Assembly: GCF_001598415.1 (NCBI RefSeq)
Contig: NZ_BCYX01000026.1
Coordinates: 1-64,000, forward strand
Direction: 5' to 3'
DNA from: Sphingomonas mali NBRC 15500
GTDB taxonomy: Bacteria > Pseudomonadota > Alphaproteobacteria > Sphingomonadales > Sphingomonadaceae
Length of the DNA stretch: 64,000 nt
Shown: positions 10,011-22,520 of the stretch, in pieces
Numbering within the stretch: the first letter of the stretch is position 1
How the letters are laid out: every line of letters begins with the position of its first letter
Program-made: the position numbers and the translations under genes
Notes under the pieces: model-generated
Database searches by the model: none
The model's input: only the letters and a program-made list of their open reading frames with translations
What the model was told of the DNA's origin: nothing

Positions 10011-10020
10011 GGTGAGAAAT

Positions 10021-10078
10021 CCCTCTCCCTTTAGGGGAGAGGGAGGGGCCCATCGCGTAGCGATGGGAGGGTGAGGGG
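10021..10078. repeat. Left inverted repeat of DUF559 cassette 1 (copy A1)
   Basis: Begins with hairpin CCCTCTCCC-TTTAG-GGGAGAGGG (10021-10043) and continues with a second hairpin, CCCATCGC-GTA-GCGATGGG (10049-10067), then AGGGTGAGGGG. The reverse complement of 10426-10487 has the same order of parts; only the inner hairpin stem differs, and it changes on both arms so pairing is kept. Confidence 0.88.
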
Positions 10079-10081
10079 GAG

Positions 10082-10495
10082 ATGAAGCGACCACCTGGCG
10101 AGGAGCCGCTCGAATTCCAGCGCCGGGTCAGGCACGAGCCGACCGAGCCGGAAAAGAGACTATGGTCTGCGGTACGTAACCGACAGGTCTCTCATGCCAA
10201 GTTCCGCAAGCAGACATGGTTGTGCGGCTATCTGGTCGACTTCTACTGTGCTGAGATCGGGCTAGTCATCGAGGTTGACGGAGACACGCATGCGCATCAG
10301 CAAGTTTATGACGAACAGCGCACCGCGCGGCTCGAAAGTGAAGGGTTTCGCGTGATCCGGTTTTCAAATGACGATGTGATGCGGAACCTGGAGGGGGTGG
10401 TGGCGCGCATTTGCGAAGCACTCGACCCCTCACCCTCCCACTCGGCTGCGCCGAGCGGGCCCCTCCCTCTCCCCCAAGGGGAGAGGGGATTATGA
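10082..10495 (+). CDS. DUF559 family protein, Vsr-like endonuclease fold (cassette 1)
   Basis: The 137-residue protein has the DUF559 core, related to the Vsr/restriction-endonuclease fold. Visible catalytic-type residues are Asp53 in VDFY, Glu64 and Asp66 in VIEVDGDTH, and His70. A nuclease role is inferred from the fold only. Residues about 115-137 ([23 protein letters not shown]) are encoded by the right-hand repeat, so the true conserved domain ends near 114. The gene is enclosed by inverted repeats 10021-10078 and 10426-10487. Its TGA overlaps the aroC ATG (10492-10495). A paralog in the same setting lies at 14701-15096. It interrupts an otherwise ordinary fabI-aroC neighbourhood, which suggests insertion. 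Confidence 0.88.
10426..10488. repeat. Right inverted repeat of DUF559 cassette 1 (copy A2)
   Basis: Inverted copy of 10021-10078: CCCCTCACCCTCCC, then a small hairpin CTCGGC-TGC-GCCGAG, then GGGCCCCTCCCTCTCCCC and the terminal hairpin 10465-10487. It is translated as the last 23 or so residues of the DUF559 protein and also carries the ribosome-binding site of aroC. Confidence 0.88.
10465..10487 (+). promoter_or_regulatory. Hairpin holding the aroC Shine-Dalgarno
   Basis: CCCTCTCCCC-CAA-GGGGAGAGGG forms a perfect 10-bp stem that ends 4 bases before the aroC ATG. The purine arm is the only Shine-Dalgarno-like sequence for aroC, so folding would hide it. Ribosomes translating the DUF559 frame pass straight through the stem and would open it. 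The regulatory effect is an inference. Confidence 0.6.
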
Positions 10496-11707: not shown

Positions 11708-12016
11708 ATGAAGCTTGTCATGCTTGCGGGCGCCTTGATCATCGGCGTCTCGGGAGTTGCGGTGGCGCAAACCACCCCGGCGACCCCCGCAACGCCGGCT
11801 ACGCCGGCAACGCCTGGCTCCATGGGCACCCCGGCGGAACCTGCAACGCCGGCCACCCCTGCCACCCCGGCAACGCCCGACGCGGCGGCGCCGAGCTCGA
11901 CCCCCGATGCCGCCACCACTCCGTCGACTACGACGGATTCGACGGCGACGTCCGATACGTCAGGTTCGACCGACTCGTCGGCGGATACGGGCAAGAAGAA
12001 GAAAAAGAAGCACTGA
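11708..12016 (+). CDS. Small secreted Ala/Thr/Pro-repeat protein with Lys-rich end
   Basis: The 102-residue product begins with a signal peptide (MKLVMLAGALIIGVSGVAVA, cleavage after AVA or AQ). The mature part is low complexity: seven or more ATP/ATPA triplet repeats (about 22-58), then a Ser/Thr/Asp/Ala-rich segment, then a tail of six Lys and His. The start at 11708 has AGGACAGGAGAG upstream. It is export-directed with no catalytic domain; it could be a cell-surface or periplasmic spacer-type protein. I do not recognise a family. The DNA repeats CCGGCAACGCC-like units, so length variation between strains is likely. Confidence 0.75.
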   Translation: MKLVMLAGALIIGVSGVAVAQTTPATPATPATPATPGSMGTPAEPATPATPATPATPDAAAPSSTPDAATTPSTTTDSTATSDTSGSTDSSADTGKKKKKKH

Positions 12017-13475: not shown

Positions 13476-13497
13476 TTGCTATTCCTTCGCTTCAGTT

Positions 13498-13585
13498 CGT
13501 CATGCCGGACTTGCTCCGGCATCCAACCATCCGCGGGCGACACCGCCTGAGGCTCGTTGGACCCCGGAACAAGTCCGGGGTGACG
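13498..13585. repeat. REP doublet, GTCA family (copy C3)
   Basis: CGTCATGCCGGACTTGCTCC at one end and GAACAAGTCCGGGGTGACG at the other, inverted, in the gap between hisZ and purA. Confidence 0.8.
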
Positions 13586-13591
13586 ATTGGG

Positions 13592-14704
13592 TTATGTGGT
13601 GATCGTGCGAACCTCACCACCTGATAAAACATGGGTACAAAGCTGCGCCTCGGGCGTGTCTCCCGCCTCGAGCGCCGCGACCGTCACCCAGCCTTCGCCG
13701 CGCAACTTGGCCGCGATCGCGGGGTCGGTGCCCAACGGCACGAACAGCCGTCGCCTTTCGTCCTGCGCCAGGCCGGCGCCGACGATCGCGTCGATATACA
13801 GCGTGAAGCCGATCGCGGTCTCTTCGCCGCCGTCCTCATGGACGATCGTATAGCTGCCGCCGCGCCCGATCTCGCCGCGCGCGCCGTCGGCGAACAGCGA
13901 GAAACCGAGCCAGGTCTGATATTCGAAACCATGCCGCTCAGTCGGATCCAGCGTCAGCGCGACGCGGCCTTTCACCGCCTCGGCGACCTTCCACAACCCA
14001 TCGAGCCGCGACCGCAACGCGCCGCCGACGTCGAACCGGCAGAGACGGTCATGCGCCGCCTCGAACGGTCCGGCTGCCTCGATCATCGGCAGATAGCTCG
14101 GCGCCAGCGCCGCGACTGCCCCGGCATCCTTGGCGTCGAGCCGGTCGGCGAGTTCATCGAGCGACACGCCGTCGAGCGGCAGCGGGCCGGCAGCAAGCGT
14201 CGCCAGCAGATCGGGCAGGGTGAAGTCGATCGAAATGCCGGTCACCCCGGCCGCCTCGAGCGCTTCGACCGCCACGGTCACGACTTCCTGCGCGGCGGCG
14301 ATCGTATCGAGCCCGATCAGTTCGCACCCGGCCTGGCGCCGCTCGCGCTCGGGCGATAGTTCCGACGCGCGCAGTCGCAGCACCGACCCGGCGTAACTCA
14401 GCCGCAGCGGCCGCGGATGATGCCCCATCCGCGTCGCGGCGATGCGCCCGACTTGCGCCGTGATGTCCGGCCGAATCGCGAGGGTACGCTGGCTGATCGG
14501 ATCGACGAAGCGCACTGCATCCTGCGCGCGCGCCGCTTTCAGCCGATGCGCCAGCGCATCCTCGAATTCGGCAAGCGGCGGATCGACGCGCTCATAGCCA
14601 TGGGCATGCGCCGCATCGAGCACGCGCCGCTCCAACCGCGCCGCCGCATCGGCGTCGGGCGGCAGCCGATCGTGAAAGCCGGAAGGGAGCAGTGCGTGAG
14701 TCAT
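13592..14704 (-). CDS. hisZ: ATP phosphoribosyltransferase regulatory subunit HisZ
   Basis: HisZ is a catalytically inactive paralog of histidyl-tRNA synthetase that partners a short HisG in the first step of histidine synthesis. The 370-residue protein starts ALLPSGFHDRLPPDADAAA and carries class II synthetase-like motif 2 (VRFVDPISQRTLAIRPDIT) without the anticodon-binding domain. Its presence implies the short form of HisG elsewhere in the genome. The ATG at 14704 overlaps the stop of the upstream DUF559 gene (ATGA), and its Shine-Dalgarno lies in the repeat hairpin 14712-14734, the same arrangement as at aroC. Confidence 0.93.
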   Translation of the reverse strand: MTHALLPSGFHDRLPPDADAAARLERRVLDAAHAHGYERVDPPLAEFEDALAHRLKAARAQDAVRFVDPISQRTLAIRPDITAQVGRIAATRMGHHPRPLRLSYAGSVLRLRASELSPERERRQAGCELIGLDTIAAAQEVVTVAVEALEAAGVTGISIDFTLPDLLATLAAGPLPLDGVSLDELADRLDAKDAGAVAALAPSYLPMIEAAGPFEAAHDRLCRFDVGGALRSRLDGLWKVAEAVKGRVALTLDPTERHGFEYQTWLGFSLFADGARGEIGRGGSYTIVHEDGGEETAIGFTLYIDAIVGAGLAQDERRRLFVPLGTDPAIAAKLRGEGWVTVAALEAGDTPEAQLCTHVLSGGEVRTITT

Positions 14705-15096
14705 TCCTGCGCCCTCTCCCCTCCGGGGAGAGGGCTGGGGAGAGGGGCAGTCGCCGCAAGCGCATCGATGATCGCCTGCAGCACCGCCGCTTCATTCGTC
14801 ATCACGTCGGAATTCGTGAAACGGATCACCCGATATCCTTGCTCTTCGAGCCATGTGGTTCGCCGCGCGTCATAGCGTTCCTGGCCGGCATGGCTATCCC
14901 CGTCGAGTTCAATCACGAGCTTTCGCGATCTCGCCGCGAAATCGACCGTGTATGGGCCGATCAACACCTGGTTCGAGAACTTCACGCCGTTCAGCCGTTT
15001 GGCGCGGAGATGGTACCATAGGCGCGCCTCGGGGCCGGTTGGCTCGCTGCGCATGGCTTTGGCGTGCTCTAGCTGGCCTTTGTCCTTCTTAGGCAC
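14701..15096 (-). CDS. DUF559 family protein, Vsr-like endonuclease fold (cassette 2)
   Basis: The 131-residue protein is a paralog of the one at 10082-10495: both share RLW-x2-LR, a KF-x-x-Q segment, Y-x-VDF, LVIE-x-DGD-x-HA, YD-x2-RT and RVIRF-x-N-x-DVM. Candidate catalytic residues are Asp52, Glu63, Asp65 and His69. The start is a GTG at 15096. The last 15 or so residues (TAPLPSPLPGGERAQE) come from the repeat, as in the paralog ([12 protein letters not shown]). It is enclosed by inverted repeats 14712-14749 and 15097-15134, and its stop overlaps the hisZ start. Sequence divergence between the two copies argues against a very recent duplication. Confidence 0.88.
   Translation of the reverse strand: MPKKDKGQLEHAKAMRSEPTGPEARLWYHLRAKRLNGVKFSNQVLIGPYTVDFAARSRKLVIELDGDSHAGQERYDARRTTWLEEQGYRVIRFTNSDVMTNEAAVLQAIIDALAATAPLPSPLPGGERAQE
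14712..14734 (-). promoter_or_regulatory. Hairpin holding the hisZ Shine-Dalgarno
   Basis: In the hisZ sense the stem is CCCTCTCCCC-GGA-GGGGAGAGGG, a perfect 10 bp, ending 7 bases before the ATG. The purine arm supplies the ribosome-binding site. Stem sequence is identical to that in front of aroC. Confidence 0.6.
14712..14749. repeat. Inverted repeat of DUF559 cassette 2, hisZ side (copy A3)
   Basis: On the + strand it reads CCCTCTCCCC-TCC-GGGGAGAGGG followed by CTGGGGAGAGGGGCA. It matches the reverse complement of 15097-15134 at about 35 of 38 positions. Confidence 0.88.
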
Positions 15097-15134
15097 TGCC
15101 CCTCTCCCCGACCCTCTCCCCAGAGGGGAGAGGG
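15097..15134. repeat. Inverted repeat of DUF559 cassette 2, serA side (copy A4)
   Basis: TGCCCCTCTCCCCGA followed by CCCTCTCCCC-AGA-GGGGAGAGGG; it abuts the GTG start of the DUF559 gene and ends 12 bases from the serA stop. The flanking GAGTTAG also follows the solo hairpin at 22498-22520. Confidence 0.88.
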
Positions 15135-15145
15135 AGTTAGATAGG

Positions 15146-16723
15146 CTAGAAGCTCAGCCCCATCACCGTCTTCACGCCCGCCAATTGGCGCACGCGGGCG
15201 ATGAGGTCGGCGTCGACTGCCTCGTCGACCGACAGCAGCAGTACCGCTTCACCGCCCGCCGAGCGGCGGCCGAGATGGAAGGTGCCGATATTGACGTCCG
15301 ATTCGCCGAGCAACGTGCCGAGGCGGCCGATAAAGCCCGGCGCATCCTCATTGACGACGTAGAGCATGTGGCCCGCCAGGTCGGCCTCGACCTTGATGCC
15401 GAACAATTCGACCAGGCGGGGCGCCTGATCGCCGAACAGGGTCCCGGCGACCGAGCGCTCGCCTGCTTCGGTCTTCACCGAGACGCGGATCAGTGTGTGG
15501 TAATCGGCCTCGCGCTCGGTGCGCACTTCGCGCACTTCGATCCCGCGCTCCTTGGCGAGCAGCGGCGCATTGACCATGTTCACCGTGTCGGTCTGGGTGC
15601 GCAGAAACCCGGCCAGCACCGCCGAGACGATCGGCTTCTGGTTGAGTTCGGCCGCAGCACCCTCGCTATGGATCGAGATGCGCCCGATCGCGCCGTGGGT
15701 CAGCTGCCCGACCAGCGAGCCGAGCTTCTCGGCCAGCGCCATATACGGCTTGAGCCGTGGCGCTTCCTCGGCCGACAGCGACGGCATGTTGAGCGCGTTG
15801 GTGACGCCGCCCGACACCAGATAGTCGGCCATCTGCTCGGCGACCTGGATCGCGACATTGACCTGCGCTTCGGTCGTGGACGCGCCGAGGTGCGGGGTCG
15901 AGATGAAATTGGGCGTGCCGAACAGTGGGCTGTCCTTCGCCGGCTCCTCGACGAACACGTCGAGCGCGGCGCCGGCGATGTGACCCGAATCGAGTCCTTC
16001 CTTGAGCGCCGCCTCGTCGATCAGCCCGCCGCGCGCGCAATTGATGATGCGCACACCCTTCTTGGTGCGGAGCAGATTGTCGCGGCTGAGGATGTTACGC
16101 GTCTGATCGGTCAGCGGGGTGTGGAGCGTGATGAAGTCGGCGCGCGCGAGCAGGTCGTCGAGATCGACCTTCTCCACGCCCAGCTCGACCGCGCGTTCGG
16201 GGCTGAGGAACGGATCGAACGCGATCACCTTCATGCGCAGGCCATGCGCGCGGTCGGCGACGATCGAGCCGATATTGCCCGCGCCGATCAGGCCGAGCGT
16301 CTTCGAGGTTAGCTCGACGCCCATGAAGCGGTTCTTCTCCCACTTGCCGGCCTGGGTCGACAGATCCGCCTCTGGCAGCTGGCGGGCGAGCGCGAACATC
16401 AGCGCGATGGCGTGTTCGGCGGTGGTGATCGAATTGCCGAACGGCGTGTTCATCACCACCACGCCCTTGGCGCTGGCGGCGGGGATGTCGACATTGTCGA
16501 CGCCGATCCCGGCGCGACCGACGACCTTGAGATTGGTCGCGGCGTCGAGGATGTCCTTGGTCACCTTGGTCGAGCTACGGATGGCGAGGCCATCATACTC
16601 GCCAATGATTGCCTTCAATTCCTCGGGCGTCTTGCCGGTGATCTCGTCCACCTCGACCCCGCGTTCGCGGAAAATCTGGGCGGCCTTGGGGTCCATTTTG
16701 TCGCTGATCAGTACCTTGGGCAT
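15146..16723 (-). CDS. serA: D-3-phosphoglycerate dehydrogenase
   Basis: SerA oxidises 3-phosphoglycerate, committing carbon to serine. The 525-residue protein is the long form: substrate and NAD domains (about 1-310, with GLIGAGNIGSIVADRA as nucleotide loop and TPHLGAST holding the catalytic His), an intervening domain (about 320-450) and a C-terminal ACT domain (HMLYVVNEDAPGFIGRLGTL) for serine feedback or subunit contact. The ATG at 16723 (MPKVLISDKMD) is chosen over longer upstream starts, which run through REP copy C4; AAAGG lies upstream. It follows serC on the same strand, forming a serC-serA unit. Confidence 0.96.
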   Translation of the reverse strand: MPKVLISDKMDPKAAQIFRERGVEVDEITGKTPEELKAIIGEYDGLAIRSSTKVTKDILDAATNLKVVGRAGIGVDNVDIPAASAKGVVVMNTPFGNSITTAEHAIALMFALARQLPEADLSTQAGKWEKNRFMGVELTSKTLGLIGAGNIGSIVADRAHGLRMKVIAFDPFLSPERAVELGVEKVDLDDLLARADFITLHTPLTDQTRNILSRDNLLRTKKGVRIINCARGGLIDEAALKEGLDSGHIAGAALDVFVEEPAKDSPLFGTPNFISTPHLGASTTEAQVNVAIQVAEQMADYLVSGGVTNALNMPSLSAEEAPRLKPYMALAEKLGSLVGQLTHGAIGRISIHSEGAAAELNQKPIVSAVLAGFLRTQTDTVNMVNAPLLAKERGIEVREVRTEREADYHTLIRVSVKTEAGERSVAGTLFGDQAPRLVELFGIKVEADLAGHMLYVVNEDAPGFIGRLGTLLGESDVNIGTFHLGRRSAGGEAVLLLSVDEAVDADLIARVRQLAGVKTVMGLSF

Positions 16724-16743
16724 GACGTTTGCCTTTCTGCAAA

Positions 16744-16823
16744 CGTCATCCTGACGAAAGTCAGGATCTCGGGCGGCAGGCGGTCGCTCGCGGCACGAGA
16801 TCCCAGCTTTCGCTGGGATGACG
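16744..16823. repeat. REP doublet, GTCA family (copy C4)
   Basis: CGTCATCCTGACGAAAGTCAGG faces TCCCAGCTTTCGCTGGGATGACG in the serC-serA gap. The right module is nearly identical to that of copy C1 at 1104-1128, although the left modules differ. Confidence 0.8.
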
Positions 16824-16829
16824 GGAAAA

Positions 16830-20545: not shown

Positions 20546-20668
20546 TCCTCCCCATCCAAGATGGGGAGGGGGACCAGCCGAAGGCTGCAGGAGGGGATTT
20601 TGGCGAGGGACAACGCCGCGCTGACGGGCGTCGTCCCCTCCCTCCCCATGCAAGCATGGGGAGGATTT
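20546..20668. repeat. Inverted REP pair, CTCCCC family (copies B3a, B3b)
   Basis: TCCTCCCCAT-CCAAG-ATGGGGAGG (20546-20569) faces CCTCCCCATG-CAA-GCATGGGGAGGA (20641-20665), with GGACCAGCC-GAA-GGCTG in between. The layout is the same as the ligD element, here in a true intergenic gap between two convergent genes. Confidence 0.8.
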
Positions 20669-22497: not shown

Positions 22498-22520
22498 CCC
22501 TCTCCCCGATGGGGAGAGGG
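22498..22520. repeat. Solo CCCTCTCCCC hairpin (copy A5)
   Basis: CCCTCTCCCC-GAT-GGGGAGAGGG, a perfect 10-bp stem followed by AGTTAG, the same sequence that borders cassette 2 at 15135-15140. No DUF559 gene is attached. It begins 9 bases after the pheA stop and could end pheA transcription. Confidence 0.8.

Follow-up and report, generated by a model that had tools for sequence, protein, structure and literature searches.

A DUF559 nuclease gene between palindromic ends at the serA–hisZ junction of Sphingomonas mali: a probable REPtron-like element and its link with genomic repeats

Two DUF559 cassettes in the window

Sphingomonas mali NBRC 15500 carries between serA and hisZ a small gene of the DUF559 family, enclosed by two inverted palindromic ends. 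We analysed this unit (cassette 2) in a 64,000-nucleotide stretch of contig NZ_BCYX01000026.1, called here the window, together with a second unit between fabI and aroC (cassette 1), and compared them with DUF559 loci of the genus, of other alphaproteobacteria and of further named genomes. The unit and its link with the repeats of the genome are well supported. Statements on papers cited by PMC number refer to the parts of those texts that were available. Cassette 2 and its flanks comprise the following features.

14701 to 15096, minus strand: DUF559 (PF04480) nuclease open reading frame (ORF) of cassette 2, 131 amino acids, GTG start
14712 to 14751: end adjoining hisZ, with the C-arm at 14712–14721, the G-arm at 14725–14734 and a third arm (G-tail) at 14737–14746, facing the gene
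15095 to 15134: end adjoining serA, an inverted copy, with the tail at 15100–15109, the C-arm at 15112–15121 and the G-arm at 15125–15134
13592 to 14704, minus strand: hisZ, conserved host flank, for which all 81 genomes of the genus have a match (one of them on two contigs, the gene being split)
15146 to 16723, minus strand: serA, conserved host flank

A sequence-only reading of this DNA had placed a DUF559 paralogue between serA and hisZ, and the ORF at 14701–15096 bears this out, with a Pfam match at E 8.6e-37. The two DUF559 proteins of the window have profile scores of 125.8 and 118.5 bits, for a curated cut-off of 20.6. The cassette-2 gene starts where one palindromic end has its inner edge, the C-terminus and stop codon are encoded in or beside the opposite end, and the stop TGA overlaps the hisZ start as ATGA. 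The inverted repeat that had been described as 38 bases long is present and slightly longer, each end having 40 nt, with 93% complementarity. Each end contains one CCCTCTCCCC arm and two GGGGAGAGGG arms, all three exact and 10 nt long. The single pyrimidine arm can thus pair with either of the two purine arms. In predicted folds of single-stranded DNA the C-arm of both ends pairs with the outer G-arm, but shuffled sequences can fold equally well (10 and 11 of 200 for the two ends; z about -1.9).

Cassette 1 is built of the following parts.

10082 to 10495, plus strand: DUF559 paralogue between fabI and aroC, 137 amino acids, its stop overlapping the aroC ATG (ATGA)
10020 to 10079: left end, with hairpin 1, hairpin 2 and then the G-tail GGGAGGGTGAGGGG
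10424 to 10487: right end, inverted

The two units share the layout claimed for them, with both stop codons overlapping the next gene as ATGA, and their proteins are diverged as had been stated, with 47% identity. The 10-base arms, said to be the same in both cassettes, match exactly only in part, the left C-arm of cassette 1 being CCCTCTCCCT. The ends of cassette 1 are of the same kind as those of cassette 2 with a second hairpin added, and they fold into two hairpins as single-stranded DNA (z -7.1 and -3.7).

Enzyme and ends across bacteria

An alignment of 39 homologues including the cassette-2 protein has nine invariant columns (R7, E14, Q34, D43, E54, D56, G57, R70 and R83). Profile searches matched the structure 3hrl (4e-37) and the homing endonuclease I-Bth0305I (3r3p, 1.3e-4), with Vsr at 0.26 only, and Foldseek likewise matched 3hrl, I-Bth0305I (TM 0.69–0.75) and, more weakly, Vsr. 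The median ratio of non-synonymous to synonymous substitution rates at serA–hisZ is 0.12 (28 pairs), and the DUF559 protein is thus under purifying selection. No transposase match was found for the enclosed cassette proteins. PADLOC gave no match for cassette 2 and three weak ones for cassette 1, including a homing endonuclease model (E 0.0018). We take the YcjD-like proteins of the literature to be DUF559 proteins. These are treated as putative PD-(D/E)XK members (PMC1189080), and one DUF559 gene has been assigned to the EDxHD family (PMC9403480). In Caulobacter lacking a cytosine methyltransferase, the DNA-damage response depends on the DUF559 protein VsrA, which has been proposed to act in mismatch repair (PMC12907096). 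This is indirect evidence that a member of the family cuts DNA in vivo.

We then asked how widely matched ends accompany such genes. For each gene, the upstream flank was aligned with the reverse-complemented downstream flank, with a score of at least 40 as threshold; four loci with less than 200 bp of flank were left out (147 to 143, i.e. 77 of the genus and 66 of other alphaproteobacteria). A further 80 loci of named genomes are the best among the matches listed, found with a DGGQH-type profile. The threshold was reached at 54 of the 77 genus loci, those of S. mali included, at 46 of the 66 other alphaproteobacterial loci and at 55 of the 80 named loci (56 less one N-run artefact, L328). Pairing flanks of different loci gave 142/770, 54/660 and 62/800, respectively, the genus value being raised because its loci share end types. 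No shuffled flanks reached 40, and random segments near hisZ reached 50 in 2 of 120 cases. In direct orientation 18/77, 21/66 and 32/80 loci reached 40; this comparison is of little use as a control, since palindromes match themselves in either orientation. According to their record titles, the named loci, among the matches listed, come from proteobacterial classes, Nitrospira, Chloroflexi, Omnitrophota, Planctomycetota, Melainabacteria and candidate phyla. Viral contigs also contain 80 relatives (best 80 of 129). The S. mali genome has eight DUF559 loci; the inverted flanks score at least 50 at seven of them, and the eighth (L001) also has an end on each side. A further palindromic insert (TGCACCGGGT...ACCCGGTGCA) interrupts the right end of L001, at 1855–1950, showing that repeat families nest. 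Rfam at the gathering score gave no match for 12 loci with such ends.

The ends follow a common plan: a pyrimidine arm, a loop, a purine arm, a spacer or second-hairpin stretch, and then a G-rich tail, for example GGGTGAGGGG. The spacer before the tail has 2 nt in 110 of the 220 ends with a recognisable tail, and it is TT in 59 of these 110. The tail is closer to its own purine arm than other tails are (p 7e-5). Within the genus, similarity of the proteins goes along with similarity of their ends (r 0.43, p 0.001), also among pairs of loci of the same genome (r 0.55, n=36).

End pairs at cassette length are specific for DUF559. In 1.27 Mb around the named loci, inward-facing end pairs 250–500 bp apart have a DUF559 gene inside in 39 of 39 cases, for 0 of 12 at 0–80 bp, one of two at 500–800 bp and 0 of 3 at 800–1500 bp. 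This count used one strict hairpin rule and loci picked for DUF559, and it therefore bears on specificity, not on frequency.

Junction history and repeat number

To follow the serA–hisZ junction we used 80 genomes, having left out the one with hisZ split over contigs (G074), and 73 for the tree and contrasts, as seven loci had no serA in view. A DUF559 gene lies beside hisZ at this junction in 33 of the 80. Both genes are in view at 73 junctions. DUF559 is present at 32 of them, another 28 have different contents, among these other palindromic repeats, and 13 are tight, i.e. empty with a gap of no more than 31 bp. In the two relatives nearest to S. mali by hisZ (87%) the gaps are 23 and 24 bp. 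On a host tree built from serA and hisZ, which could themselves recombine, presence of DUF559 at the junction changes 18 times, at least 14 of which are forced by well-supported branches.

The DUF559 proteins of the junction form one clade (support 97/89) with only three members from other places, indicating that the site was colonised essentially once. Three genomes (G026, G029 and G056) carry this type of DUF559 elsewhere (L057, L174 and L143), with none seen at serA–hisZ; they are possible relocations. The gene tree and the host tree conflict, since G068 groups with G040, G004 and G050 by DUF559 and with G015 and G026 by host genes. Hence, where the sequence-only reading had called for a search for empty junctions and for a comparison of the DUF559 tree with the species, 13 of 73 junctions proved tight and the two trees disagree, instead of the strict agreement without empty sites that would have spoken against that reading.

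Close genomes show cassette-sized replacement. Over the region G034 is closest to G069 (93.5%; eight close genomes), yet their DUF559 proteins are only 54% identical, and that of G034 is 91% identical to that of G018. Conversely, G069 and G024 are 89.3% alike over the region and have an identical DUF559 domain. Between close species the alleles of the junction are 53–56% identical, with the border at the hisZ start and the serA stop. In 250-column windows over ~10 kb, G069 and G034 share 84–98% identity but 66 and 71% between the hisZ start and the serA stop; the last window, at the alignment edge, has 67%. In 50-column steps the junction drops to about 60%. The same turnover is seen at fabI–aroC, where four of eight close genomes have DUF559 genes that are 50–92% identical, and several sites hold more than one DUF559 lineage. 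Both junctions of the window recur as DUF559 sites in the genus, fabI–aroC in several other species. Support for a mobile system reaches well past the two placements claimed from the sequence, which need not be fresh insertions. Essentially, the serA–hisZ genes represent one lineage lost, regained and swapped at the site, not many independent insertions.

A swap was also found in Azospirillum, where flanks of 92–97% identity surround DUF559 genes of 74–77% identity at a junction that we presume to be ruvC–ruvA; the odd allele (L310) has a gene-less pair ahead of its gene. No empty allele was found for an Azospirillum plasmid cassette beside prfA, which was covered in all seven records holding at least 80% of the query. 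At yet another junction, two different gene-less repeat pairs occur in five related species and the site is empty in two (seven close genomes aligned). Separately, a DUF559 cassette of Azospirillum argentinense has as its direct neighbour a sequence that elsewhere carries the annotation of an IS110-family transposase (L378, about 1209–2373). IS110-type elements insert at palindromes, and this arrangement is in line with that.

Copies of the palindromes are also scattered outside the cassettes. The pattern CCTCYCC-N2-10-GGRGAGG occurs nine times in the window, for a mean of 0.00 in 100 shuffles, with the following copies away from the DUF559 genes.

20547 to 20664: two palindromes of this pattern, their starts 94 bp apart, REPIN-like by spacing (REPIN, a hairpin-forming pair of repetitive extragenic palindromes, REPs)
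1755 to 1773: single palindrome of this pattern
22499 to 22519: single palindrome of this pattern

A strict palindrome pattern has 119 sites in the S. mali genome (reversed control, 0) and a broader one 229 (reversed control, 2). These counts are complete for the genome; among the strict-pattern sites listed, which are part of them, many are pairs about 100–126 bp apart and thus REPIN-like. A match for Y1_Tnp (PF01797), the domain of the REP transposase Y1 or RAYT (REP-associated tyrosine transposase), was sought in this genome and not found; the domain is present in 6 of the 81 genomes of the genus.

DUF559 is present in 75 of these 81 genomes, that of S. mali included, and the number of DUF559 genes correlates with that of palindromes (Spearman 0.75, p 6e-16), also after subtracting two ends per gene (0.72). 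The six DUF559-free genomes have 1–9 palindromes each, and those with six or more DUF559 genes have a median of 188.5. Genome size correlates weakly with both numbers (0.29 and 0.33). With phylogenetic contrasts on the 73-genome serA and hisZ tree the correlation is maintained (r 0.58, 72 contrasts, p 6e-8). In a class sample, 125 of 385 genomes have DUF559 at E <= 0.001. Over 383 alphaproteobacteria outside the genus, kinship being ignored, the Spearman coefficient is 0.68, and at least 10 palindromes are found in 68 of 92 genomes with strong DUF559 versus 19 of 291 without, DUF559 being counted as strong only where the best match of the genome was below about 1e-15. The reversed control pattern occurs at most 7 times in the genus and mostly 0–3 times, up to 24, in the class sample.

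The link extends to subtypes. Of 36 genomes in which the serA–hisZ type of DUF559 is known to be present, 21 contain at least two palindromes of that type, versus 3 of 38 other genomes (p 4e-6, and p 0.0026 when the two own ends are subtracted), seven genomes of unknown junction state being left out and the 38 possibly holding the type elsewhere. The pattern used misses the S. mali variant (count 0). The median number of site-B-type palindromes is 57.5 among the 16 known site-B genomes and 1.0 among the other 65, and cross associations between the subtypes are weak (p 0.02 and 0.04).

Other observations concern the surroundings in the window. The window covers nearly all of the contig (64,079 bases), and a palindrome of the DUF559-end family lies at 62–81, 62 bases from the contig edge; repeats of this kind may break assemblies. 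Two CGTC/GTCATCC-type palindromic pairs, at 13497–13586 (between purA and hisZ) and at about 16740–16826 (upstream of serA), resemble CGTC-tagged REPs (PMC3733652) and belong to a family distinct from the DUF559 ends. The product of a small ORF at 11709–12016, rich in Thr-Pro-Ala repeats and with a lysine-rich tail, is possibly secreted or located in the envelope. A tRNA search of the window with ARAGORN was negative.

Interpretation and rival explanations

Our preferred interpretation, to which we give a probability of roughly 0.7, is that the unit is an autonomous selfish, REPtron-like element made of one Vsr/EDxHD-type nuclease gene and two palindromic ends, and that gene-less ends are its non-autonomous offspring. 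Paired ends in many phyla, the dose relationship between DUF559 and repeats and the lack of a Y1 match in the S. mali genome also support the earlier proposal of a mobile or repeat-generating system. As in the TnpAREP/REP systems (PMC8266576), a single enzyme gene is flanked by inverted palindromic repeats, many further repeat copies occur singly or in pairs, and enzyme and repeat subtypes co-vary. In contrast to REPtrons, whose enzyme (TnpAREP or RAYT) is a Y1 HuH protein, the unit encodes a Vsr/EDxHD-type nuclease; several enzyme genes are present per genome; the ends carry a third, G-rich arm; and the GTAG expected at the foot of a REP hairpin is in neither 40-nt end of cassette 2. The gene-less pairs resemble REPINs and miniature inverted-repeat transposable elements (MITEs) in being short, inverted, multi-copy and polymorphic between related species.

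The pair-specific ends, the dose and subtype link, the purifying selection, the empty sites and the cassette-sized swaps are direct observations, and we infer recognition and cleavage by the DUF559 protein and copying by repair. The protein would first recognise its own end subtype. Its probable target is the repeated G-rich arm of each end, which might be extruded as a hairpin. It would then nick or cut either at an end or at a target junction that lacks ends, and another copy, whether present in the cell or entering on foreign DNA, would serve as the repair template from which a cassette or a gene-less pair is copied. In this homing-like manner, empty junctions would be filled and resident cassettes replaced with short conversion tracts. 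Internal deletion might yield the short gene-less pairs, which the same nuclease could spread.

Several observations weigh against this interpretation. About 30% of DUF559 loci have no matched ends by flank score, and by the strict hairpin rule both inward ends are found for 40 of 85 DUF559 genes and at least one for 64. The replaced Azospirillum cassette L310 has no matched right end (score 22). Beyond the genus, protein and end co-divergence is weak (r 0.18 with p 0.012, and r 0.16 with p 0.055). Target duplications of at least 4 bp occur at 12% of 136 loci versus 8% of shuffled pairings, and none stands out; for at least 3 bp there is a mild excess (53/136 loci, 39%, versus 28%). Comparison of 16 groups of same-genome loci revealed no two near-identical cassettes, the most alike long matches being 72–82% identical, and recent transposition of the gene itself is thus unseen; an equal-score pair in G029 considered as a recent duplicate was rejected, as it is unlike in DNA. 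As the serA–hisZ genes form one clade (33 plus 3), the gene is largely site-faithful. Outside the genus, 13 of 383 genomes have at least 15 palindromes without strong DUF559, and nine have strong DUF559 with at most three palindromes. Finally, the link between DUF559 and repeats is a correlation, which does not by itself imply causation.

Site fidelity is also what would be expected if DUF559 were simply a freestanding homing nuclease of fixed sites, with ends that protect or terminate and scattered repeats that are decayed remnants of cassettes. This explanation, which we consider unlikely, draws on the 33 of 36 clade members at serA–hisZ, on swaps limited to the cassette and on kinship with I-Bth0305I. 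The likeness to that enzyme, an EDxHD homing endonuclease (such enzymes are described in PMC3943268), comprises the nuclease fold and homologous catalytic domain, site fidelity, patchy presence, cassette-sized replacement and a freestanding gene at a fixed site with empty alleles. However, the DUF559 cassette has no visible intron or intein, the proteins have about 110–130 residues and no added DNA-binding region, and the units have palindromic ends and genome-wide repeats. Decay hardly accounts for up to 489 palindromes in a genome with only ten DUF559 genes, or for the regularly spaced pairs formed by many of the palindromes listed. In addition, different DUF559 lineages can occupy one junction, and the intact gene-less pair at a junction empty in two related species looks like spread in its own right, not decay.

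REPs are common intergenic hairpins, and another enzyme might spread the palindromes here, DUF559 genes being host DNA-repair genes that merely lie between them or use them as terminators. The mismatch-repair role proposed for VsrA (PMC12907096) and the 13 palindrome-rich genomes without strong DUF559 fit this explanation, which we regard as less probable still. Vsr and VsrA belong to the same nuclease superfamily as the cassette proteins, and VsrA carries a DUF559 domain; its proposed role differs in being mismatch repair linked to a methyltransferase (PMC12907096). Mere passengers would not be expected to be the only genes in cassette-length inward pairs (39/39), to predict the number and subtype of palindromes by their own, or to have ends that match better within a locus than between loci, and Y1 transposases, the sole alternative enzyme tested, were found neither in S. 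mali nor in 75 of the 81 genomes. That the cassette is a classical insertion sequence (IS) with its transposase elsewhere is very improbable: the unit is like ISs and MITEs in its terminal inverted repeats and gene-less derivatives, but the enclosed gene is a nuclease gene without a transposase match, the end sequences vary between loci while matching within each, and there is no clear target duplication.

Among the known systems closest to the element are also the CGTC-tagged REPs of Alphaproteobacteria, likewise abundant palindromes and often head-to-head dimers, for which no dedicated transposase is reported in the text available; they differ from the DUF559 ends in sequence, including their CGTC tag (PMC3733652). 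No earlier description of an element of DUF559 plus ends was found in the literature searched, which included few subscription papers and hardly any preprints. Judged by title and abstract start, none of the 14 papers in that literature that mention DUF559 was about repeats, and a text search for the letters GGGAGAGGG gave nothing relevant among the matches listed. The words endonuclease, transposase and DUF are absent from the available text of PMC12306157, and endonuclease from that of PMC5082802. The broader proposal, on which we are evenly divided, is that of an unnamed, bacteria-wide class of elements in which a Vsr/EDxHD-type nuclease, not a transposase, homes into fixed junctions, swaps rivals and seeds hundreds of gene-less pairs, making DUF559 the missing driver of a major alphaproteobacterial REP-like class.

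DUF559 is widespread and still of unknown function in Pfam, and this unit of ~400 bp, if the interpretation is true, would give the family a function. It would also provide a driver for one class of alphaproteobacterial palindromes and represent a second, independent way of making REP-like elements. What moves REP-like repeats in the absence of a RAYT would thereby become experimentally addressable.

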